A DNA stretch of 36,479 nucleotides from a virus. A program made the position numbers and the translations under genes. The stretch covers positions 1 through 36,479 of the IMG/VR virus record IMGVR_UViG_3300030098_000109. One strand, written 5' to 3'. The notes below the pieces were generated by a model. That model did no database searches and had not been told where the DNA came from. It saw nothing but the letters and a program-made list of their open reading frames with translations. Position 1 is the first letter of the stretch. Each line of letters begins with the position of its first letter. This document shows positions 7,273-19,003 of the stretch, one piece after another.

Positions 7273-7757
7273 ACGTTGTCCTTCAAATTTACTAACTCAG
7301 CTTCTCCGTATGGTATATGGAAGAAGTGTTCCTTCCTACCCACATTGCCAAGCCATATTTCTTTTATACATTCTTGTGTCATCTGATAGTCTTTTATTCT
7401 CCAAGCGAACTCACAGTCTCTTCTTATAACATAGAAGTTAAAGAAAGCGTCCTTGTCGTTCATCTCTCTAAACTTATTTACGAGTTTTATTTTACGATGT
7501 GGTATGCGTATCTCCTTCCATGTTGGATTCCAATCTCCAGTCCACTGGTTCTTCATTTCTACCTCAGAATAATACTTGTGTCCATTCTTTTCTGAACTTA
7601 TATCAAAAGAGTAGTTCTCACCCGATGATATATTTATATGTCCATTACGTTCTAAATAATTAATTACAATTTGTTTAGCCTTGCCATCGTTCTCCTTGTA
7701 TGAGCTAGGCTGAAAGCGTCTATGAAACGCACCTTTTACTGGTTCTAATCTGTTCAT
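7269..7757 (-). CDS. Putative PD-(D/E)xK-like protein (162 aa)
   Basis: Encoded between helicase and polymerase with 4-nt overlaps on both sides. The arrangement helix (KAKQIVINYLERNGH), then YSFDIS (Asp52), then YYSEVEMKNQW (Glu67, Lys69) fits the D-ExK core of small restriction-like nucleases, followed by conserved-looking WKEIRIPHRK and a beta-rich C-terminal half. A role as an accessory replication or repair nuclease is an inference from this motif and the operon context. It could also be a catalytically inactive relative. Confidence 0.65.
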   Translation of the reverse strand: MNRLEPVKGAFHRRFQPSSYKENDGKAKQIVINYLERNGHINISSGENYSFDISSEKNGHKYYSEVEMKNQWTGDWNPTWKEIRIPHRKIKLVNKFREMNDKDAFFNFYVIRRDCEFAWRIKDYQMTQECIKEIWLGNVGRKEHFFHIPYGEAELVNLKDNV

Positions 7758-8977
7758 GCTGAATACCTCGCTGTGTATGGGTCTAGCTCACAGACAATCT
7801 TGCCATGCCAACCAGACAGTTTGTTTTTTACAACATTGATGTGTCTCTGTGGTGATTGTTCTTCCTCACCTTCAACGTCAGGGTTCTTGGCTAGTAGTAG
7901 CATCAGATCTGCTTCTGCAGCTTTACCTGTTCTACTACCTTCCATCATGGCTTGGTTGAGTACAACCTTGCCTTCTGCTTCAGCAGATAGCTGTGACATA
8001 TAAAATATAGCACAACCATACTGCTTGGCTATCATACGAGCATAGATAGCGTTTGCTTTCAGAGCTTCATCTTGTCGAGCAAACCCTGCTGTCTTGGCAA
8101 ACTTATCGCCCATATCTAGCACAACTATATCGGGTCTGTGTGACTTAGCCACACTCTCAACCCATGTCATATCACGACCAGTGCAATCAATCATCTCTAT
8201 ATTCTGACGCACTGTAGCATACTTCTCCTGTGTAAGCTGTGGATTCTTGACTATCTGTTCTTGTGTCATGCCTGTGCTTGCAGTTAAATATCTAATACCA
8301 ACTCTATGCACTGCTTCTTCGTTACATAGTATAACACACTTAGCACCCTGCCTAGCAAAACCATTCTGTCCTGCTATCATGGATGCGTGAAAAGATGTTT
8401 TACCTGTGTTAGGTCTAGCTCCAACCTCTATCAGATGACCCTCGTTTACACCTTCAATCTTACGTGTAAGACTTGGTATATTAAATGTCCACCTTGCTTC
8501 CATAGCATTCTTAGCAAGCAATGTCTCCATAGATATGTCTGCCCACTCCACATTGAGTGTAGGTATGAAGTCATCACCATACTGCTCTAGCATATTACGT
8601 AATGGCTCAAGACTTGACTTGCTACCATTAACGTAATCAAAACCTAAGTTAGCTATCTCTTCACCCACAACCTGCTGAAACAACTTGGATAACACCTCTT
8701 GTGCTACGTCATTACCAAGTGGTTGCTCCTTCTTGATACGAACAAAGAAGTCACCGTATGCTTGCTTCTGTGCTGTGGTCATTGTTGGATTGTTAGCCAA
8801 GAACAGTGCTTCAACCTCATCAGGTGTTACTGATCTATTGTACCGTTGCATGGCATAATCAACAGAGTTTTTTATCTTACGTAAATCCTTGCTAAATAAT
8901 TTATCAGGACAACGTATACCTCTATGTTCATCATAGAAGTCTTTCTTCATTAGACTACGTATTAATGCTATTTCCAT
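7754..8977 (-). CDS. DnaB-like replicative DNA helicase
   Basis: RecA-fold helicase that unwinds DNA at the fork. The 407-aa protein has an N-terminal helical region (1-140), Walker A GARPNTGKTS (Lys193), Walker B IVVLDM (Asp288), the MSQLS motif (about 327-331), GSRTGKAAEADLML (348-360) and the VVKNKLSGWHGK arginine-finger segment (382-393). This is the superfamily 4 (DnaB/T7 gp4) order. It is separate from the primase, unlike T7 gp4. AGGAG precedes the start, which overlaps the end of the primase gene by 23 nt. Confidence 0.92.
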   Translation of the reverse strand: MEIALIRSLMKKDFYDEHRGIRCPDKLFSKDLRKIKNSVDYAMQRYNRSVTPDEVEALFLANNPTMTTAQKQAYGDFFVRIKKEQPLGNDVAQEVLSKLFQQVVGEEIANLGFDYVNGSKSSLEPLRNMLEQYGDDFIPTLNVEWADISMETLLAKNAMEARWTFNIPSLTRKIEGVNEGHLIEVGARPNTGKTSFHASMIAGQNGFARQGAKCVILCNEEAVHRVGIRYLTASTGMTQEQIVKNPQLTQEKYATVRQNIEMIDCTGRDMTWVESVAKSHRPDIVVLDMGDKFAKTAGFARQDEALKANAIYARMIAKQYGCAIFYMSQLSAEAEGKVVLNQAMMEGSRTGKAAEADLMLLLAKNPDVEGEEEQSPQRHINVVKNKLSGWHGKIVCELDPYTARYSA

Positions 8978-12891: not shown

Positions 12892-13133
12892 TCTTTTTTC
12901 TCCTCTTCTGGTAAGTTTTCTTTTAACTGGTAGTCTGTATACCAACCACCCTGCAAACCTCTAGGCTGTTCAAACTCTAGTAGTCTTGCTAGTGTGAACA
13001 TGAGAGTTTCTATCTCACAAACGTGTTCATAAGAGATAGGTATTTTCTCTGATGTGTTACAGTTAAACTCCCTCAGTACATTAACGTACTTGAGTAGTTC
13101 TATTCTGTCCTTTGGTTCTATTATTATCTTCAT
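12888..13133 (-). CDS. Hypothetical small protein (81 aa)
   Basis: 81-aa soluble protein, MKIIIEPKDRIELLKYVNVLREF..., rich in Leu and Glu and probably mostly helical, with an acidic tail ENLPEEEKKE whose codons double as the ribosome site of the next gene. It overlaps the methyltransferase stop by 4 nt (ATGA). I do not recognise it. Confidence 0.6.
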   Translation of the reverse strand: MKIIIEPKDRIELLKYVNVLREFNCNTSEKIPISYEHVCEIETLMFTLARLLEFEQPRGLQGGWYTDYQLKENLPEEEKKE

Positions 13134-14134
13134 GAATATACTCCTTCTAATATGTGCGAGATCACTGCACGAGTGAAGCCATTGCCGATCATCTTGTAGC
13201 GTTGGCTGTTTGATATAGGCTTGAGTTTGTGTACCCGAAACCCCATGTGTTTATCCTGCTCGACAAACTGTCCATACTCTGTCCATCCATCAGGCAAAGT
13301 CTGAAGACGTTCACATTCTAAAGGTGTTAATGCTCTCCAATGTAGTTTGTCTGTCTCTACCTTGGGCATTCGCCATCCACCCTGCATGGTAGTCAGGGTA
13401 GGACTCTTGCCTTGCCTAGAGTACACACGCTTGATTATGTCATAGCCTTTGAGGTCAGCTTCACCGACTTGCTTACAACCTTTGTGATTGAAGACTACTT
13501 GTCTACGAGACTTCTCAAAGTACATCTTCATGCTACCACCTTTGAAGTAGTTGGCATCTACACAATAAGACTTATCCCTGTCGGTCATGCTGTCATCTTC
13601 TAGTATATCCTGTAGTACGATGCCCATGTCATCCAACTCGTCATGTGGTGAGTTAGTTATGTAGACACGCTTTCTCTCCTGACCTGACACCTTGCCACTG
13701 TTGTGAGATCGCATCTGTGCATCTGGACGTATGGCACTGATACGCTTGTACCACTCATGCTTGGCTTTGGACTCGACATTCTCAAACAGATAGAACTCAG
13801 GGTTCAGACCTTCCAATGCCTGATACATAACCTCAGACAAGTCACGACTATCTGAAGTGCCAAGCTGTTTACCTGCCACGCTGTAAGGCTGACAGGGGAA
13901 ACCTGCTACAAGCAGAAAGATATCTCTACCTTTCAGTTTATCCCAACCATTAGCATCACCATGATGTATAGCATGAGGTATCCTGTATCTTGATACAGCA
14001 CTAGCATACTTGTCTGTTTCGAATGTGTGATACTCGTAGTCACCATCAGGTGATACATCAATACCTGCATCTAGGCATGAGAGGTAGGCACTATCTGTGC
14101 CACCACATAGACTAACCACTATCTTTTTCACCAT
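13130..14134 (-). CDS. DNA (cytosine-5) methyltransferase
   Basis: Transfers methyl from S-adenosylmethionine to cytosine C5. The 334-aa protein shows motif I VVSLCGGTDSAYLSC, the PC loop GFPCQPYSVAGKQ with catalytic Cys81, motif VI ENVES (Glu118), motif VIII QERKRVYI, the region WRALTPLECERLQTLPDGWT (motif IX) and motif X RYKMIGNGF. All catalytic motifs are intact. The start at 14134 is set by AGGAG 7 nt upstream; the frame also has an upstream GTG. No restriction enzyme gene is seen beside it, so it is likely an orphan enzyme that modifies phage DNA against host restriction or alters host methylation. The recognition sequence cannot be read from the protein. Confidence 0.93.
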   Translation of the reverse strand: MVKKIVVSLCGGTDSAYLSCLDAGIDVSPDGDYEYHTFETDKYASAVSRYRIPHAIHHGDANGWDKLKGRDIFLLVAGFPCQPYSVAGKQLGTSDSRDLSEVMYQALEGLNPEFYLFENVESKAKHEWYKRISAIRPDAQMRSHNSGKVSGQERKRVYITNSPHDELDDMGIVLQDILEDDSMTDRDKSYCVDANYFKGGSMKMYFEKSRRQVVFNHKGCKQVGEADLKGYDIIKRVYSRQGKSPTLTTMQGGWRMPKVETDKLHWRALTPLECERLQTLPDGWTEYGQFVEQDKHMGFRVHKLKPISNSQRYKMIGNGFTRAVISHILEGVYS

Positions 14135-14300
14135 TAACACTCTCCTTTCTTAAATCGTTTACCATATTGACCCACTTAGACATCTCCTTCTGATGCCTAA
14201 GTTGAGCTTCTCTCTGACGTTTGTCCTGCACAACCTGCGACTTCTTACGCAGGATGTGAGGATTGCGTGGCTTCCACGCTTTGATCTTCTTGTTAGCCAT
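14112..14300 (-). CDS. Small basic protein of unknown function (62 aa)
   Basis: Lysine- and arginine-rich 62-aa protein (MANKKIKAWKPRNPHILRKKSQVVQDKRQREAQLRHQKEM...), mostly polar and helical. It starts 1 nt after the DUF932-like stop and overlaps the methyltransferase start by 23 nt. The charge suggests nucleic-acid binding, but there is no recognised motif. Confidence 0.6.
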   Translation of the reverse strand: MANKKIKAWKPRNPHILRKKSQVVQDKRQREAQLRHQKEMSKWVNMVNDLRKESVNGEKDSG

Positions 14301-14301
14301 G

Positions 14302-15159
14302 TTAAGCCACTACCAACTGCTTGAAGGTAGGTGAGTCTACCCACTTGGCAACCTCTTGCTCTCGCTTGAACAGGGTGACTTCTCTGGTATCCTTACCAGT
14401 GTTCCTGATCTTGAAGTTGTTTCTCTCATCACCATAGGTAGCGTAGTTGGTGAACGCACTGTACAGTGAGAATACATTCTCACCTCTAGTATGAGACTCG
14501 TCCTTGTACAAGGAGAACATCTTCTCTGCCTTCTTCTCAGAAGGTATTATCTTGGACAAGATACTTGGCACATCAAGACTAGCAAGATTTATCTTGCCCC
14601 AAGTATTGAGCCTACCCATACGATCAGAGAAGTCTGTGTACCCATCGTACAGTCTCTTCTCCAGACCACCGATGGTGAAGTTAGAAGTGTTCTTACACTT
14701 CGTCATGTCATACTCACCTGTGATCATACCATTGGTGCAGAAGAAGTCGATAGCACCAAAGTAAATCAGATTACCACATGTACCATCCACACCATGCAAC
14801 GCAATGATACGATAGCCTGTCTTGGTCTTGTGACCATTGTTGGTAACGATATCATAAGTCACATTAGGTAATGTGATATCCATTCGTAGCCAACCACCAC
14901 CATGAGCAGATCGGAAGGCTACACTCATGCCCTCTAGCTGTTCGGGTGTATGGTTGTCACGGACAACCTTGTAGACAGAAGAGCAGAATGCTCTGTGTCC
15001 TGCAGGGCTAAAGCCCTTGCCCATGTGAGCAATGACATCGCCAGTCACAGGGTTGATCACAAACTTGTGACCCTCCATTCGTGACTTCTCGTACTGAGGT
15101 ACAAAGTCACAGATCTCTGGAAGTTGTTGAATTGTGTTAGGTGTAAAATCTAAAGCCAT
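14302..15159 (-). CDS. DUF932-like phage protein (285 aa)
   Basis: The middle of the protein (YRIIALHGVDGTCGNLIYFGAIDFFCTNGMITGEYD) and the overall length match the DUF932 phage/plasmid family, whose function is unknown, although members often sit near replication genes and resemble RecT-neighbour proteins. AGGAG precedes the ATG by 6 nt. From this gene leftward-transcribed sequence begins to show perfect small hairpins within codons (for example 14582-14597 and 14952-14968), a feature that intensifies toward 18.2 kb. Confidence 0.75.
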   Translation of the reverse strand: MALDFTPNTIQQLPEICDFVPQYEKSRMEGHKFVINPVTGDVIAHMGKGFSPAGHRAFCSSVYKVVRDNHTPEQLEGMSVAFRSAHGGGWLRMDITLPNVTYDIVTNNGHKTKTGYRIIALHGVDGTCGNLIYFGAIDFFCTNGMITGEYDMTKCKNTSNFTIGGLEKRLYDGYTDFSDRMGRLNTWGKINLASLDVPSILSKIIPSEKKAEKMFSLYKDESHTRGENVFSLYSAFTNYATYGDERNNFKIRNTGKDTREVTLFKREQEVAKWVDSPTFKQLVVA

Positions 15160-15179
15160 AATTGACTCCTTTCTCTTGG

Positions 15180-15419
15180 TTAATGATAAGTTGGCATCTC
15201 AGGATGCTGTTCGTAGACATAGCCTACGTCTGGCTCTGAGTCAAGTAGATACTCTTTTACAAAGAGAAACTCTACCTTGGCATCAGGATAGCAAGACCTA
15301 GTTACGTCCAATGCGTAGTTAATCGCAGATGAACTGTCCATAATGGTGGGGTACGAGTAAGACACTCGCACCACACCCTTCTGTTCATCTACGGATACAA
15401 AGACCTCGTAGTGGATCAT
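15180..15419 (-). CDS. Hypothetical small protein (79 aa)
   Basis: 79-aa acidic soluble protein (MIHYEVFVSVDEQKGVVRVSYSYPTIMDSSSAINYALDVTRSCYPDAKVEF is its main body in fragments: strand-rich N-terminus, helix SSAINYALDVTRS, then strand). Begins 2 nt after the preceding stop and ends 20 nt before the DUF932-like gene. No family recognised; the beta-alpha-beta pattern suggests a small ferredoxin-like fold. Confidence 0.6.
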   Translation of the reverse strand: MIHYEVFVSVDEQKGVVRVSYSYPTIMDSSSAINYALDVTRSCYPDAKVEFLFVKEYLLDSEPDVGYVYEQHPEMPTYH

Positions 15420-15421
15420 TG

Positions 15422-15736
15422 TTAGGCTACCTTCTTCTGGATAAGGAAGGACTTGATTGGCACATAGTGTGCCACTCTTCGCTTGCCCTTTCTATCGTAG
15501 GCATGGAAGCAAGAGTAACTCTTGCCAAAGTTCAAGCGAACCAAAGGTTCACCTGACTTGCCACCTTTACCCTTACGGATAAACCATCCTGTCTCTTGGA
15601 CTTTGTCATTCCTGTAGATGACAGGCTTGTAGCCTTGTAGCTTCAGCTTGATTGCTGTAGCAATAATTTTGATGGCAGTGAAACCACCAGAGATTTTTGT
15701 GCCTTTTGGCAAGTTGTCAAAGTTAAATGTAAGCAT
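15422..15736 (-). CDS. Hypothetical basic protein (104 aa)
   Basis: 104-aa basic protein, MLTFNFDNLPKGTKISGGF..., with a central KGKGGKSGEPLVRLNFGKS and C-terminal KRRVAHYVPIKSFLIQKK. AGGAG lies 7 nt before the ATG. One copy of the TCCCAACAATGTCGGGA palindrome lies 27-43 nt upstream of the start, where it would be in the mRNA leader or promoter. Several perfect hairpins lie within the gene (15458-15474, 15509-15525, 15538-15550, 15651-15664). Function unknown. Confidence 0.62.
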   Translation of the reverse strand: MLTFNFDNLPKGTKISGGFTAIKIIATAIKLKLQGYKPVIYRNDKVQETGWFIRKGKGGKSGEPLVRLNFGKSYSCFHAYDRKGKRRVAHYVPIKSFLIQKKVA

Positions 15737-15762
15737 GGTAATGCTCCTTTCTGTGTTGTGTC

Positions 15763-15779
15763 TCCCAACAATGTCGGGA
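15763..15779. repeat. Palindromic repeat copy 1 (TCCCAACAATGTCGGGA)
   Basis: First of five 17-bp copies of TCCCAACAWTGTCGGGA. The half-sites differ only by an A/G that would pair as a G-U wobble in RNA on the minus strand. This copy is intergenic, 27 nt upstream of the 104-aa gene. Confidence 0.85.
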
Positions 15780-15799
15780 AACGTTGGGTTTATGTACCA

Positions 15800-15844
15800 C
15801 AGTTATATAGTACTTTCACTAAAGTTCAAGTACTATATTAACTG
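15800..15844 (-). promoter_or_regulatory. Long hairpin with conserved 12-nt loop, copy A
   Basis: Arms CAGTTATATAGTACTT and AAGTACTATATTAACTG form a 16-bp stem with one bulged base around the loop TCACTAAAGTTC (minus strand GAACTTTAGTGA). The structure spans the stop codon of the 140-aa gene and is followed leftward by the palindromic repeat. A second hairpin with the same loop but a different stem lies at 17208-17273. There is no clear T-tract, so a simple terminator is not the best explanation. Confidence 0.6.
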
Positions 15845-16260
15845 TATACTTTAACTGAAGGTTTTCCTTCAGCCGTAGTTGTCAGCCAGATAGACTCTAC
15901 CTCGCCAACAGGTTCACCATTGTCTACATAGACAAAGGTATCGTTCTTGTAAGGGTTATAGGTTACAAACCTGCCGTCTGTCTTTATTTGTGGCATATAC
16001 ATAACATAATGTTTAGGATACCACCCCTCGGCAAAGGCATGGACATTCTTATTGCCTTCTTTGAGGACACGCAGTCTACCCCCTTGCCTTACCTTGAACT
16101 TAGGTTTAATAGTCTTACCCCTTTTGTCATAGGTAGGCTCAAAGTAAGCACTCTCTAGGTACACTTCTGGTTGTCTACCGACAACTAGCCCAGACTTCTT
16201 GTCTTGTATAGACCATTGACCTTTGTGCAAGTTCCAATATATTCTGACATTTTTATCCAT
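15838..16260 (-). CDS. Hypothetical protein (140 aa)
   Basis: 140-aa soluble protein with conserved-looking aromatic segments (MDKNVRIYWNLHKGQWSIQDKKSG, HAFAEGWYPKHYVMYMPQI, VTYNPYKNDTFVYVD), all-beta in appearance. AAAGGAG precedes the start. The stop codon lies inside a long hairpin. The WNLHKGQWSIQ...VVGRQPEVYLESAYFEP part recalls small uncharacterised phage proteins, but I cannot name a family. Confidence 0.65.
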   Translation of the reverse strand: MDKNVRIYWNLHKGQWSIQDKKSGLVVGRQPEVYLESAYFEPTYDKRGKTIKPKFKVRQGGRLRVLKEGNKNVHAFAEGWYPKHYVMYMPQIKTDGRFVTYNPYKNDTFVYVDNGEPVGEVESIWLTTTAEGKPSVKVYS

Positions 16261-16262
16261 AG

Positions 16263-16421
16263 CTATGCTACTCCTTTCTGACGTAGTCTATGTTTACGGA
16301 CAAGCCTTCTCTCTCTGAGAGAGTTGTGCTTATCCCTTCGGTCATTCCCAACAATGTCGGGAAACACTTTCCTCTTCTTGGAAGAGGAAGCATTCTTTTG
16401 AAAGTTAATATTACTTTGCAT
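16263..16421 (-). CDS. Small very basic protein (52 aa) carrying an in-frame palindromic repeat
   Basis: A 52-aa frame that starts MQSNINFQKNASSSKKRKV and ends RKHRLRQKGVA. CGGAG lies 8 nt upstream, in the loop of a small hairpin, and the stop is 2 nt before the next ATG, whose AGGAG lies in its last codons. The repeat copy at 16346-16362 is translated as FPDIVGN. Strong hairpins lie at 16369-16391 (CTTCCTCTTC/GAAGAGGAAG) and around 16309. The composition suggests nucleic-acid binding; no family recognised. Confidence 0.6.
   Translation of the reverse strand: MQSNINFQKNASSSKKRKVFPDIVGNDRRDKHNSLRERRLVRKHRLRQKGVA
16346..16362. repeat. Palindromic repeat copy 2 (TCCCAACAATGTCGGGA)
   Basis: Second copy, within the 52-aa gene and read in frame on the minus strand as Pro-Asp-Ile-Val-Gly. 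Confidence 0.85.
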
Positions 16422-16434
16422 AGTAAAACTCCGT

Positions 16435-17139
16435 TTAATGTTCAGATAGATGTACTATCTGAGTTCTGTTAATAGTCTTCTGTGAAAAGCATCCTGCTTT
16501 ACACACACTGCAATGTCCAGATAGTTTCTTGTGTGTCTTAGGACACAAAAACATTCTCTGTTTGTAGACAGGATCTTCGATCATGTCATCATCACCAAAG
16601 AACATAATGTTCCAGTCGCTGTCAATCAAAGATTGCCATTCATCCTTCGTATTAGAAGGATCAAGAGAAGCATTGACAGCTACGTTAGGTAATGGCATTA
16701 GCTCAATCTCTATAAGAGATTTAAGTAATGTGTTTCTCCAAGCTCTAGTAGGTAGCCAGATAATACTATCTGGAGCTTCAAGAGCCATTTCTTTGATACG
16801 ATAGATATCAGAGATATCTTTGATACCTTCACCTCTGGTACAAGCTCTGACTCTCTTGGTCTGCTTCTTTCTTTTAGAAAGCCAAGAATTATAGCTATCT
16901 TTGATAGCTTCTGGTGTCATCTTTTGCCAGACTGTCTCACATCTGTCATCTCTGACAGACATGTTTTTGTACATTCTGTACAACTTTACGTTGTAACAAG
17001 TTTTGTCACAATAGTCAGTTCTGTGATCACAAGTTCCCTTGTGATTCTCTGTGTCATTGATAGGTCTATCCCAAGCAAACATATCAATGTCACTACAGTA
17101 TCTGAATAGATCATTGTACTCTTTAATGGTAACTGTCAT
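16435..17139 (-). CDS. GP88-like cysteine-rich phage protein (234 aa)
   Basis: Resembles the phage GP88 family: an N-terminal cysteine cluster (GTCDHRTDYCDKTCYNVKLY), a middle with RVRACTRGEGIKDISDIYRI and the line PDSIIWLPTRAWRN...NVAVNASLDPSN (matching the family's YTRS and S-x-D region), and a C-terminal cluster (CPKTHKKLSGHCSVCKAGC). The cysteines suggest metal or Fe-S binding; the family's activity is unknown. Its leader holds the Shine-Dalgarno GGA in the triloop of TTAAAC-GGA-GTTTAA just before the ATG. The coding sequence contains at least ten perfect hairpins, for example 16442-16462, 16705-16721, 16756-16773, 16803-16819, 16893-16909 and 17026-17045. Confidence 0.72.
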   Translation of the reverse strand: MTVTIKEYNDLFRYCSDIDMFAWDRPINDTENHKGTCDHRTDYCDKTCYNVKLYRMYKNMSVRDDRCETVWQKMTPEAIKDSYNSWLSKRKKQTKRVRACTRGEGIKDISDIYRIKEMALEAPDSIIWLPTRAWRNTLLKSLIEIELMPLPNVAVNASLDPSNTKDEWQSLIDSDWNIMFFGDDDMIEDPVYKQRMFLCPKTHKKLSGHCSVCKAGCFSQKTINRTQIVHLSEH

Positions 17140-17140
17140 T

Positions 17141-17155
17141 TTAAACTCCGTTTAA
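17141..17155 (-). promoter_or_regulatory. Ribosome site displayed in a hairpin triloop
   Basis: On the minus strand TTAAAC-GGA-GTTTAA forms a perfect 6-bp stem whose triloop is the core of the Shine-Dalgarno sequence, ending just before ATG at 17139. Related leaders occur at 17325-17341 (TTTAATC-GGA-GATTAAA, changed stem, same loop) and in weaker form at 16424-16438. The altered but still paired stem argues for selection on the fold. Confidence 0.55.
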
Positions 17156-17161
17156 GTTGCT

Positions 17162-17178
17162 TCCCAACATTGTCGGGA
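17162..17178. repeat. Palindromic repeat copy 3 (TCCCAACATTGTCGGGA)
   Basis: Third copy, intergenic, 23-39 nt upstream of the GP88-like start, at nearly the same distance as copy 1 is from its downstream gene. Confidence 0.85.
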
Positions 17179-17207
17179 ATGGTTTCGGTTTGGTCGGCAC
17201 TAAAGTC

Positions 17208-17273
17208 TATAACACTAATAGAAATAAAACACCTTCACTGAAGTTCAGGTGTTTTATTTCTGTGTTATAGTCT
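17208..17273 (-). promoter_or_regulatory. Long hairpin with conserved 12-nt loop, copy B
   Basis: Inner arms GAAATAAAACACCT and AGGTGTTTTATTTC enclose TCACTGAAGTTC; an outer pair CTATAACAC / GTGTTATAG extends the stem past a small asymmetric bulge. The loop differs from copy A (15800-15844) at one base, while the arms differ almost throughout but stay paired. It lies in the leader between the 251-aa gene and the GP88-like gene. Confidence 0.65.
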
Positions 17274-17295
17274 AAGTCTCTTCGGCAATCAAGTC

Positions 17296-17322
17296 CTATC
17301 GGACTAAAAGAAAACAAGTCAT
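17296..17322 (-). CDS. Possible 8-residue leader peptide
   Basis: A tiny frame MTCFLLVR directly follows a hairpin (17325-17341) that shows GGAG in its loop, with the ATG 10 nt after it. It overlaps another small hairpin AGTCC-TATC-GGACT. It lies between the terminator of the 251-aa gene and the long hairpin before the GP88-like gene, the position of an attenuator leader peptide. Very short, so support is only positional. Confidence 0.25.
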   Translation of the reverse strand: MTCFLLVR

Positions 17323-17324
17323 AG

Positions 17325-17341
17325 TTTAATCTCCGATTAAA
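17325..17341 (-). promoter_or_regulatory. Second ribosome site in a hairpin triloop
   Basis: TTTAATC-GGA-GATTAAA on the minus strand, a perfect 7-bp stem with the Shine-Dalgarno core as triloop. Same design as 17141-17155 with different stem bases. It precedes only the 8-codon frame at 17296-17322. Confidence 0.5.
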
Positions 17342-17349
17342 AAGGTTGA

Positions 17350-17395
17350 AACAAAAAAAAGAGCATAGCACCTAAGTGCTATACTCTTTCAGTGA
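17350..17395 (-). terminator. Rho-independent terminator after the 251-aa gene
   Basis: On the minus strand a long stem (AAAGAGTATAGCAC / GTGCTATGCTCTTT, one mismatch, loop TTAG) runs straight into a tract of eight or more T. It lies just after the stop codon at 17404. This is the clearest intrinsic terminator in the left half and isolates the 251-aa gene transcript from the genes to the left, at least in part. Confidence 0.85.
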
Positions 17396-17403
17396 AAGGT
17401 AGC

Positions 17404-18159
17404 TTACGCTACCTTCCTCTTCTTCTTGGAAGCCTTTGGCTTCTGCTGTGAAGCATGGTGCAACTCTATGAGTTGCAAGATAACCTCTTCGAGGTTAAAC
17501 TGCTTCCTTGAAGCAATCTCAGCAGTATACTGAGCCAAACCCTTGGGGTTTGAAGGAACGTTGATCACTTTCGACTTCTTAGTAGAAGTCACCTCATTCC
17601 CAACATTGTCGGGATTGACCTCAACCTTTGGTTGAGACTGAGAAGTCGTAGACTTCTTCTTGGAAGCCTTTGGCTTCTTTCTTGTTGAGAAGTCACCGAC
17701 TTCTTCAACAAATGCTCTTTTCATCGCTGAAAGCGATGTAAAGCCAAGGGACTGTTTTCCGTTGGTGAGAACTCTGTTCTCAAGCCAAGCAGTGATTTGG
17801 TCATGGTTCTTATAGAACCATAAGCATTCACTTCTCCTCTGAGAAGTGAGTTTGTTCAGAGAACACTCTTCCAATCTATGATTGGAGATCCTGCCGTATT
17901 TGCTTTCCAAGCAAAGCTCATCGATCAGCTTACCAGTTTGGTAAGCTAGTCCACCAGACTGAGTATCAGTCTTGTGAAGCTTGGAATGCTCCAACAGAAA
18001 CTTAGCAGTTTCTGAAGCAATGACTGCTCCTCTAGCTTCAAAAGTACCACTGTACTTTTGGAAAGCCTGAGGTTTCTTAGAAACCTTTGGAGCAACTTTA
18101 GTTGCTTTAGCAGATTTGCTCTTTAGAGCAGTTACGAGTTTGGATTTTGTGTTTGGCAT
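17404..18159 (-). CDS. Basic protein of unknown function encoded by a hairpin-saturated gene (251 aa)
   Basis: First gene of the leftward arm. Lys/Ser/Ala-rich tails (KPKASKKKS near 163-171 and KPKASKKKRKVA at the end) flank two more ordered regions (about 35-155 and 190-235), so a DNA- or RNA-binding structural role is plausible, but no family is recognised. The DNA is extraordinary: about 20 perfect hairpins with 6-9 bp stems and 3-5 nt loops, for example 17429-17443, 17459-17477, 17481-17497, 17536-17552, 17573-17590, 17641-17657, 17722-17738, 17803-17821, 17828-17849, 17899-17915, 17956-17972, 18039-18060. One palindromic repeat is read in frame as NPDNVGN. AAGGAGG precedes the ATG. Confidence 0.8.
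   Translation of the reverse strand: MPNTKSKLVTALKSKSAKATKVAPKVSKKPQAFQKYSGTFEARGAVIASETAKFLLEHSKLHKTDTQSGGLAYQTGKLIDELCLESKYGRISNHRLEECSLNKLTSQRRSECLWFYKNHDQITAWLENRVLTNGKQSLGFTSLSAMKRAFVEEVGDFSTRKKPKASKKKSTTSQSQPKVEVNPDNVGNEVTSTKKSKVINVPSNPKGLAQYTAEIASRKQFNLEEVILQLIELHHASQQKPKASKKKRKVA
17598..17614. repeat. Palindromic repeat copy 4 (TCCCAACATTGTCGGGA)
   Basis: Fourth copy, within the 251-aa gene, read on the minus strand as Asn-Pro-Asp-Asn-Val-Gly-Asn in the linker between its two ordered regions. Confidence 0.85.
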
Positions 18160-18175
18160 TTTGCCCTCCTTCTAT

Positions 18176-18220
18176 TAATTGGTTAACACATTTGTAAACA
18201 AATGTTGTGTTAACCAATTA
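18176..18220. promoter_or_regulatory. 45-bp palindrome with two GTGTTAACC half-sites
   Basis: Outer arms TAATTGGTTAACACA and TGTGTTAACCAATTA are perfect complements (15 bp), with inner TTTGT/ACAAA able to pair. It sits directly upstream of the ribosome site of the 251-aa gene. A third GTGTTAACC occurs at 18568-18576. A repressor operator or a replication-initiator site are the leading possibilities. Confidence 0.65.
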
Positions 18221-18233
18221 CTAGGGTTGCCGA

Positions 18234-18250
18234 TCCCAACAATGTCGGGA
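18234..18250. repeat. Palindromic repeat copy 5 (TCCCAACAATGTCGGGA)
   Basis: Fifth and rightmost copy, in the control region between the 45-bp palindrome and the rightward terminator-like hairpin, 75 nt upstream of the 251-aa gene. Confidence 0.85.
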
Positions 18251-18256
18251 ATGGAT

Positions 18257-18280
18257 CATACCCCCTTGGGGTATGTTTTT
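18257..18280 (+). terminator. Rightward-facing terminator-like hairpin
   Basis: CATACCCC-CTT-GGGGTATG followed by five T on the plus strand, a textbook intrinsic terminator. No rightward gene precedes it, so it would stop antisense transcription coming out of the leftward operon, or the stem works in the leftward mRNA leader instead. Confidence 0.6.
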
Positions 18281-18300
18281 GGATGACCAAAGAATGACCA

Positions 18301-18327
18301 TAGGCTTTAGCCTAAACCTGTTTTTTT
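18301..18327 (+). terminator. Second terminator-like hairpin in the control region
   Basis: TAGGCT-TT-AGCCTA followed after six bases by a run of seven T on the plus strand. Weaker than the neighbouring hairpin because of the very short loop and the gap before the T-tract. Confidence 0.35.
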
Positions 18328-18567
18328 CAGAAATCTTGACCTCAAACAACTGATTGCCTACGGCAACTGATGTGATAACAGTTGCTTTTAAAAACAAACT
18401 CGTTTGTTTTCAAGGCGATGGGCATTCCAAGGTGCATTGCGATGCACAATTTGCGTTCACCACGCATCGGGATGCACGATTTTACCTGCATCGGGCATCG
18501 GGACGCATGGGGAAGGGGGGGTGCGTCAGATATATGTATATATAAATACACAGATTAGGAAAAATGA

Positions 18568-18607
18568 GTGTTAACCACTTTAGTACGGATATGGATAGGG
18601 GTGTCAA
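18568..18607 (-). promoter_or_regulatory. Possible leftward promoter with operator-like GTGTTAACC
   Basis: On the minus strand TTGACA (18607-18602) is followed after 16 nt by the weak -10 TACTAA (18585-18580); GTGTTAACC at 18568-18576 would then cover the start point. The -35 is perfect and the -10 poor, so this could be a regulated promoter or chance. Confidence 0.35.
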
Positions 18608-18617
18608 ATAATTGGTA

Positions 18618-18646
18618 TTGACTACTAAAAGCATACATGATATAAT
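18618..18646 (+). promoter_or_regulatory. Sigma70-like rightward promoter
   Basis: TTGACT (18618-18623), a 17-bp spacer and TATAAT (18641-18646): close to the ideal bacterial housekeeping promoter. It would drive the right (structural and lysis) arm. It is about 10 bp from an oppositely oriented TTGACA, so the two arms may be co-regulated here. Confidence 0.8.
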
Positions 18647-18783
18647 TATATAAACTAGGATGACATATTAAGTGTTACATTAAAGTGTTTATTCAATATA
18701 AATAAATAATCACTTACATGTAACATATTAAATGTATGTCTATATAGGGATTTATCCGTACTTTTTTAAATTAATGTTTGACA

Positions 18784-18993
18784 ATGGGAAAAAAATCCGT
18801 AAAACTATACACAGATAATGTAATTGAAGAGTTTTATTCTGCTGTGGCTAATAACAACTTAGATAAATTACATATACCTCACAGTGATGTTTTCTACGTA
18901 AGAGCCGCAGTGGAAGCCCACTATGGCAGATCTTTTACTTTGAAAGAGGTGGAAGACGCTATGATAGCTGAAGGTTGGTCAGACCATAAATAG
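18784..18993 (+). CDS. Hypothetical small protein, first gene of the right arm (69 aa)
   Basis: 69-aa protein MGKKSVKLYTDNVIEEFYSAVANN... with a basic N-terminus and helical body (DVFYVRAAVEAHYGRSFTLKEVEDAMIAEGW). The C-terminal helix-loop-helix pattern could be a winged-helix or EF-like fold, but I recognise no family. The ATG at 18784 is chosen; a TTG two codons earlier is an alternative and no strong ribosome site precedes either. As the first gene behind the strong promoter it could be regulatory; that is inference. Confidence 0.6.
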   Translation: MGKKSVKLYTDNVIEEFYSAVANNNLDKLHIPHSDVFYVRAAVEAHYGRSFTLKEVEDAMIAEGWSDHK

Positions 18994-19003
18994 GAGCAAA
19001 ACT

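Follow-up and report, generated by a model that had tools for sequence, protein, structure and literature searches.

Why should a protein-coding gene of a phage be written largely as a run of tiny hairpins, and at what level does such a pattern arise? The question comes from a preliminary description of the viral record IMGVR_UViG_3300030098_000109, analyzed here over its whole 36,479 nt (hereafter the window), which singled out a 251-aa gene as a chain of about twenty micro-hairpins and supposed either that the gene functions mainly as structured RNA or that a tolerant protein records hairpin-driven mutation. Judged from its polymerase, zinc-finger motif, and matching early genes, the window phage is of the HMO-2011 type, a very common kind of ocean phage. 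Its DNA polymerase is 65.7% identical over the full length to that of Puniceispirillum phage HMO-2011, and the translation carries a CXXCXGXG-type motif, the DnaJ-like zinc finger whose presence in the DNA polymerase marks the HMO-2011 group (PMC6918029).

Within the 251-aa gene we counted 22 non-overlapping perfect stems of 6–9 bp, 17 with loops of 3 nt and five with loops of 4 nt, compared with a mean of 1.5 (maximum 5; n = 200) in dinucleotide shuffles and a mean of 2.9 (maximum 7) in synonymous-codon shuffles made within the gene, with protein and codon counts unchanged. Because the synonymous shuffles produce so few, the hairpins are the result of codon choice and are not forced by the protein. 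The initial count of about twenty was therefore sound, as was the account of perfect 6–9 bp stems with mostly 3-nt loops; the estimate that roughly half of the bases lie in stems was slightly generous (318/756, 42%), and the fit to the reading frame ascribed to each hairpin is a phase preference only, shared by 11 of the 17 three-nt-loop hairpins. A stem-loop, GAAGCC-TTT-GGCTTC on the plus strand, does encode KPKASKKK, at both copies of this motif rather than at the one reported (Table 1). The predicted folding energy of the mRNA was -296.5 kcal/mol against -206.2 kcal/mol in shuffles (44% lower, z -11.8). A helicase stretch of equal length (7754–8509) with no hairpin excess still folded 16% below its shuffles (z -4.6), and mild RNA structure may therefore be a general trait of the genome.

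The chain of hairpins is real in this gene but is not a trait of it alone, as had been described: it belongs to an array of ~4.2 kb that runs through adjoining genes and intergenic DNA to ~14.27 kb (Table 1). The array begins abruptly beside the divergent intergenic region, thins leftwards, and ends ahead of the methylase gene, with 14.9 hairpins per kb in coding and 8.7 per kb in non-coding DNA; loops of 3–5 nt are favored, and arms more than ~10 nt apart show little excess. Compared with synonymous shuffles in the same genome, no excess was present in the methylase, polymerase, helicase, primase, or reductase genes, nor was any found in the rightward genes of the window. We looked for even spacing of the hairpins and did not find it, and Rfam covariance models applied to positions 13000–19000 gave three matches, all under their gathering scores. 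GC and AT skew both flip at ~18.4 kb, where the array starts in the divergent intergenic region. Possibly this region both holds the replication origin and switches the direction of transcription; minus-strand promoter matches in it were at chance level. Just past the first gene, the window (17180–17400) and the close relatives L004, L006, and L007 differ in gene content, the replaced DNA staying hairpin-dense; a long terminator-like hairpin in the intergenic DNA at 17220–17260 (AGAAATAAAACACC...GGTGTTTTATTTCT) shows a paired A-T to T-A swap in L005 and L007.

Table 1. Positions of the hairpin array, its genes, and individual hairpins in the window
Feature	Position	Strand	Remarks
Hairpin array: 59 perfect stems of 6–9 bp, loops of 3–5 nt	14265..18447	minus (sense)	~3 in shuffles
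Early gene, 285 aa	14302..15159	minus	9 hairpins vs 1.15 in synonymous shuffles
Early gene, 140 aa, mycobacteriophage L5 gp82-like (PF25735)	15838..16260	minus	3 hairpins vs 0.4
Early gene, 234 aa, Pfam GP88 (PF17338) family	16435..17139	minus	11 hairpins vs 1.2 in synonymous shuffles
Ribosome-site hairpin TTAAAC-GGA-GTTTAA, Shine-Dalgarno bases in loop	17141..17155	minus	Abuts ATG at 17139
First early gene, 251 aa, apparent founder of an undescribed protein family	17404..18159	minus	ATG start; 22 hairpins
Stem-loop coding second KPKAS, sense GAAGCC-AAA-GGCTTC	17429..17443	minus	Compensatory G-C to A-T in L003 and L005
Hairpin in which relatives show two compensatory changes	17573..17590	minus	One change swaps S to L in step with pairing
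Stem-loop coding first KPKAS	17663..17677	minus	Sequence identical to that at 17429..17443
8-bp hairpin at LWFYKN	17803..17821	minus	Same codons hairpinned in CRP-1 (LWFYEN)
9-bp hairpin at AYQTGKL	17927..17947	minus	Same codons hairpinned in L103 clade (AYQLGKL, ~38% protein identity)
Intergenic region from which early (minus) and late (plus) genes diverge	18160..18777		Strongly conserved among relatives

Comparison of the 251-aa gene with seven relatives (90–98% protein identity) showed how closely the pairing is kept. Among 1113 comparisons of stem pairs, 1099 were identical, nine were compensatory (both partners changed, giving a new Watson-Crick pair), five were G-U, and none was broken; where the amino acid is conserved, 4.2% of third codon positions varied in stems as against 28% in spacers. 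Across the whole array region of the clade, variable positions made up 2.6% of stem and 8.4% of spacer. This is the opposite of a protein kept while its stems are lost and its synonymous sites evolve freely, and it bears out the idea that selection acts on the nucleic-acid structure of the gene: compensatory changes preserve the stems, and their synonymous sites are nearly frozen. In places the amino acids, too, track the pairing, as where a paired change at alignment positions 569/586 hits a second codon position; a 21-base insertion in L007 itself forms a hairpin.

The same behavior extends well beyond this clade. All 41 nucleotide clusters of the first-gene family were enriched in hairpins, ~2- to 26-fold, with density falling with distance from the first gene, and their folding energy, computed in tiles, had a mean z of -5.9. 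Across 28 independent phage pairs, divergence was 4.9% in stems, 8.7% in spacers, and 9.3% in loops, and 362 of 472 hairpins were unchanged; between clades, at ~38% protein identity, homologous genes carry mostly different stems at similar density. What is conserved is pairing, independent of any particular protein and mostly of any particular hairpin, densest in the first gene and decaying downstream. The array is genuine, widespread, and under strong selection, and a single-gene framing is too narrow for it. Because pairing is kept through compensation, hairpins turn over at steady density, and stem size is tuned, we consider it very probable that pairing as such is under selection in the early operon.

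Stem size also separates this reading from a mutational origin, in which template switching within transient hairpins would perfect imperfect palindromes in an operon that merely tolerates or attracts the process. Quasipalindrome template-switch mutation is an established mechanism in bacteria and would yield both perfect stems and paired changes. Consistent with it, hairpins occur in coding and non-coding DNA alike, and transversion-type double changes, which are unreachable via G-U, make up about half of all double changes (36 hairpins), above the single-substitution expectation (ts:tv 1.1); because they seem commoner than expected, a one-step mutation keeps some share of the probability. 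Template switching would be expected, however, to leave open-ended stems and loop inversions. Triloop hairpins instead numbered 220 at exactly 6 bp (15 expected) and 94 at 7 bp (3 expected), with extension beyond this peak no more frequent than chance, and loop inversion had to be rejected as a mutational signature, with three cases among 130 loop changes. Moreover, the polymerase, helicase, and reductase genes, copied by the same polymerase, show no excess, and phages of the same type that do not carry the first-gene family lack the array. The recurring unit is a short hairpin of set dimensions (6–7 bp, a 3–4 nt loop, and a 5'-pyrimidine/purine-3' closing pair), not a growing palindrome, and its stems and loops share no sequence; in coding DNA it favors the codon phases with the greatest synonymous freedom. 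Mutation thus appears an improbable source of the array, and the proposal of a tolerant protein that records it is disfavored.

Relatives of the 251-aa gene open the early operons of CRP-1 and CRP-345, and an alignment of 34 members shows the protein conserved to ~25% identity; a helical core with no known fold is confidently predicted between Lys/Ser-rich ends. We found no Pfam or PHROGs family for it, no convincing match in a PDB sequence and fold search, and no relative in bacterial genomes, the one viral fold match being an unnamed protein, S4S2E1; on these searches, the first early gene founds an undescribed protein family with no known relatives. The suggestion that the gene is mainly structured RNA accordingly holds in that structure is selected, but it fails to accommodate a conserved protein with a predicted helical core, and the structure is a trait of the whole early operon.

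Could this protein be the reason for the array, binding the hairpins as RNA or as DNA and thereby joining gene and hairpins into a single system? In 43 comparable records, dense early arrays occurred only alongside the first-gene family, with a median maximum density in the early region of 13 per kb where the family gene was present and 3 per kb where it was not (kinship not corrected for), and the Lys/Ser-rich ends and helical core of the protein fit such a role. The association is nevertheless not independent because the phages are related, three records with diverged homologues have no array, and the loops offer no common sequence, which leaves a protein-guided array, on present sequence comparisons, with little probability. 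No array was found in CRP-2, CRP-3, or T7; in N4 (L257, 1–49000) small hairpins are mildly in excess across the genome (54 vs 30) and peak at the left early end. A broader version would have the first early protein and size-tuned mini-hairpins, set by synonymous choice in all early genes, form a self-contained system that provides a structural coat, or a code, for early mRNA or DNA. This seems to us rather unlikely; if true, protein and hairpins together would have no described precedent among double-stranded DNA viruses.

Our preferred reading, to which as a whole we assign a probability of about 0.5, is that the early operon is selected for dense, short, local hairpins that act in the early mRNA. 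Small hairpins would fold as the RNA emerges from the polymerase, and the folded early mRNA would offer few unpaired stretches to host RNases, to Rho, or to R-loop formation, with Shine-Dalgarno sites remaining open in loops and the first ~60 nt of genes remaining free; the choice among RNases, Rho, and R-loops as the target is a guess, in which we put RNase E-type decay first. RNase E-like RNWTT motifs are enriched in the stems of the sense strand, an excess that is, however, confounded by the closing-pair bias. The restriction of the array to one operon was counted in favor of the RNA level. Among imperfect stems, G-U exceeded A-C by 21 to 7 in two dense clades, whereas the two were equal (50 to 52) over all clusters; stems of at least 6 bp continued past an outer G-U in 52 of 121 cases and past an outer A-C in 26 of 107, which hints at pairing on the sense strand, and this difference was not repeated with 5-bp stems, nor did stem ends show a clear bias. 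Shine-Dalgarno bases lie in a hairpin loop before 40 of 176 early starts, those of downstream early genes and not of the first gene, and hairpin cover drops from ~0.17 to 0.07 past start codons. As evidence for the sense strand, the G-U bias, the loop-placed Shine-Dalgarno sites, and the gap after start codons are only suggestive; the latter two would be expected whatever made the hairpins. Over the 41 clusters, the antisense RNA is predicted to fold no less stably than the sense RNA, and DNA parameters give a signal at least as strong. That early mRNA is the level of selection thus has, in our estimation, roughly even odds.

These last observations would suit hairpins that form in DNA, with negatively supercoiled or single-stranded phage DNA extruding mini-hairpins closed as C-loop-G, as at N4 early promoters. 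In N4, C:G closing together with 5' G and 3' A loop bases is needed for extrusion at physiological supercoiling (PMC4496689), and the triloops of the 41-cluster pool match these needs: the closing pair is 5'-C..G-3' in 122 cases and G..C in 15 (T..A 101, A..T 30), a bias absent from other stem positions and from shuffles, and GNA loops are ~5-fold over expectation. Pairing is, moreover, almost purely Watson-Crick and strand-symmetric, folding as DNA gave a z of -13.4, and GC skew reverses at the array boundary. Yet GNA loops favor the sense strand (94 to 29 in coding and 38 to 4 in non-coding DNA, against a background of 1.4), a preference shared by GNNA loops that strand-blind extrusion would not give. 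Loops in the densest clade are mostly A-rich rather than GNA, and C-G closing with GNA loops, strong in the pool, is weak in the window, where most loops are AAA, ATA, TAC, and similar; N4, besides, needs a handful of hairpins and not ~60, and a virion polymerase of its type was not noticed among the window genes. Hairpins extruded in DNA, which would bind proteins, prime synthesis, or take up supercoils where early transcription or replication starts, are a serious rival that ranks next after the mRNA reading, though we think it less likely than not. We judge the RNA level about twice as likely as the DNA level.

Two kinds of element in the early operon call for separate mention. Ribosome-site hairpins of 5–7 bp (for example TTAAC-GGA-GTTAA) stand a few bases 5' of the ATG in the window (17325–17341 and the site in Table 1) and at many other loci, among them L250, L208, and L226, sharing just GGA or GAA in the loop. 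An operator-like palindrome, TTCCCGACAWTGTTGGGAA, occurs in five copies (15762–15780, 16345–16363, 17161–17179, 17597–17615, and 18233–18251), all within the early operon (chance 0.02). The family-wide form, TCCRAYRTYGGA or TCCCRAC..GTYGGGA, has 147 copies in 39 of the 41 clusters and none in shuffles; its copies typically lie just 5' of genes, with one occurrence within the first gene that codes for the conserved NVG motif. These palindromes probably serve a phage regulator as binding sites.

We found no description of such hairpin arrays in phages in the open-access literature. Selection that can hold synonymous sites and draw amino acids after it within an operon of a double-stranded DNA phage would mean that ordered viral nucleic-acid structure is not confined to RNA viruses, and pairing kept where sequence changes points to an unrecognized job for the structure itself. 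The 41 clusters, ranging from dense to sparse, form a comparative system for what the structure does, and several cultured members, among them CRP-1 and CRP-345 with their roseobacter hosts, make testing possible. The arrays also warn that in the early genes of phages, structure can govern both codon choice and dN/dS.

Among known systems, the promoters of the N4 virion RNA polymerase resemble the array in their 5–7 bp stems, 3-nt loops, and early location (PMC4496689); their C-G closing and preferred GNA loops recur strongly in the 41-cluster pool but weakly in the window. The promoters differ in being few and in having conserved bases, whereas the array comprises ~60 hairpins of unrelated sequence, mostly intragenic, among which we found no N4-like conserved recognition bases at a fixed distance from a start site. 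The start-associated sequences (SAS/ESAS) of cluster K mycobacteriophages contain a Shine-Dalgarno site, have ends complementary to each other, and precede some of the genes, with an inverted repeat upstream (PMC3203893), an arrangement comparable to TTAAC-GGA-GTTAA plus the TCCRAYRTYGGA palindrome in these phages. SAS, however, is one conserved 13-bp sequence; no single repeat of the GGGATAGGAGCCC type was found at the starts here, where stems vary from gene to gene and form a small part of the array. The genome-scale ordered RNA structure (GORS) of RNA viruses is pervasive and selected, and its position turns over (PMC7642675). Like GORS, the array consists of widespread short-range stem-loops in coding sequence, with energies far under those of shuffles in both the 251-aa gene (z -11.8) and the 41 clusters (mean -5.9), with less variation at paired sites (4.9% vs 8.7% among phage pairs, 2.6% vs 8.4% in the clade), and with a turnover of individual stems that leaves the overall amount of pairing intact. 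Unlike GORS, which is spread over the genomes of positive-strand RNA viruses, it occupies ~4.2 kb of the window and uses hairpins of one narrow size, and its energy excess is 44% as against the 7–15% quoted for RNA viruses (PMC7642675), figures obtained with different shuffling schemes. Because the genome is double-stranded DNA and the array is limited to one operon, it is not a member of GORS, which by analogy is nonetheless its closest counterpart in behavior.
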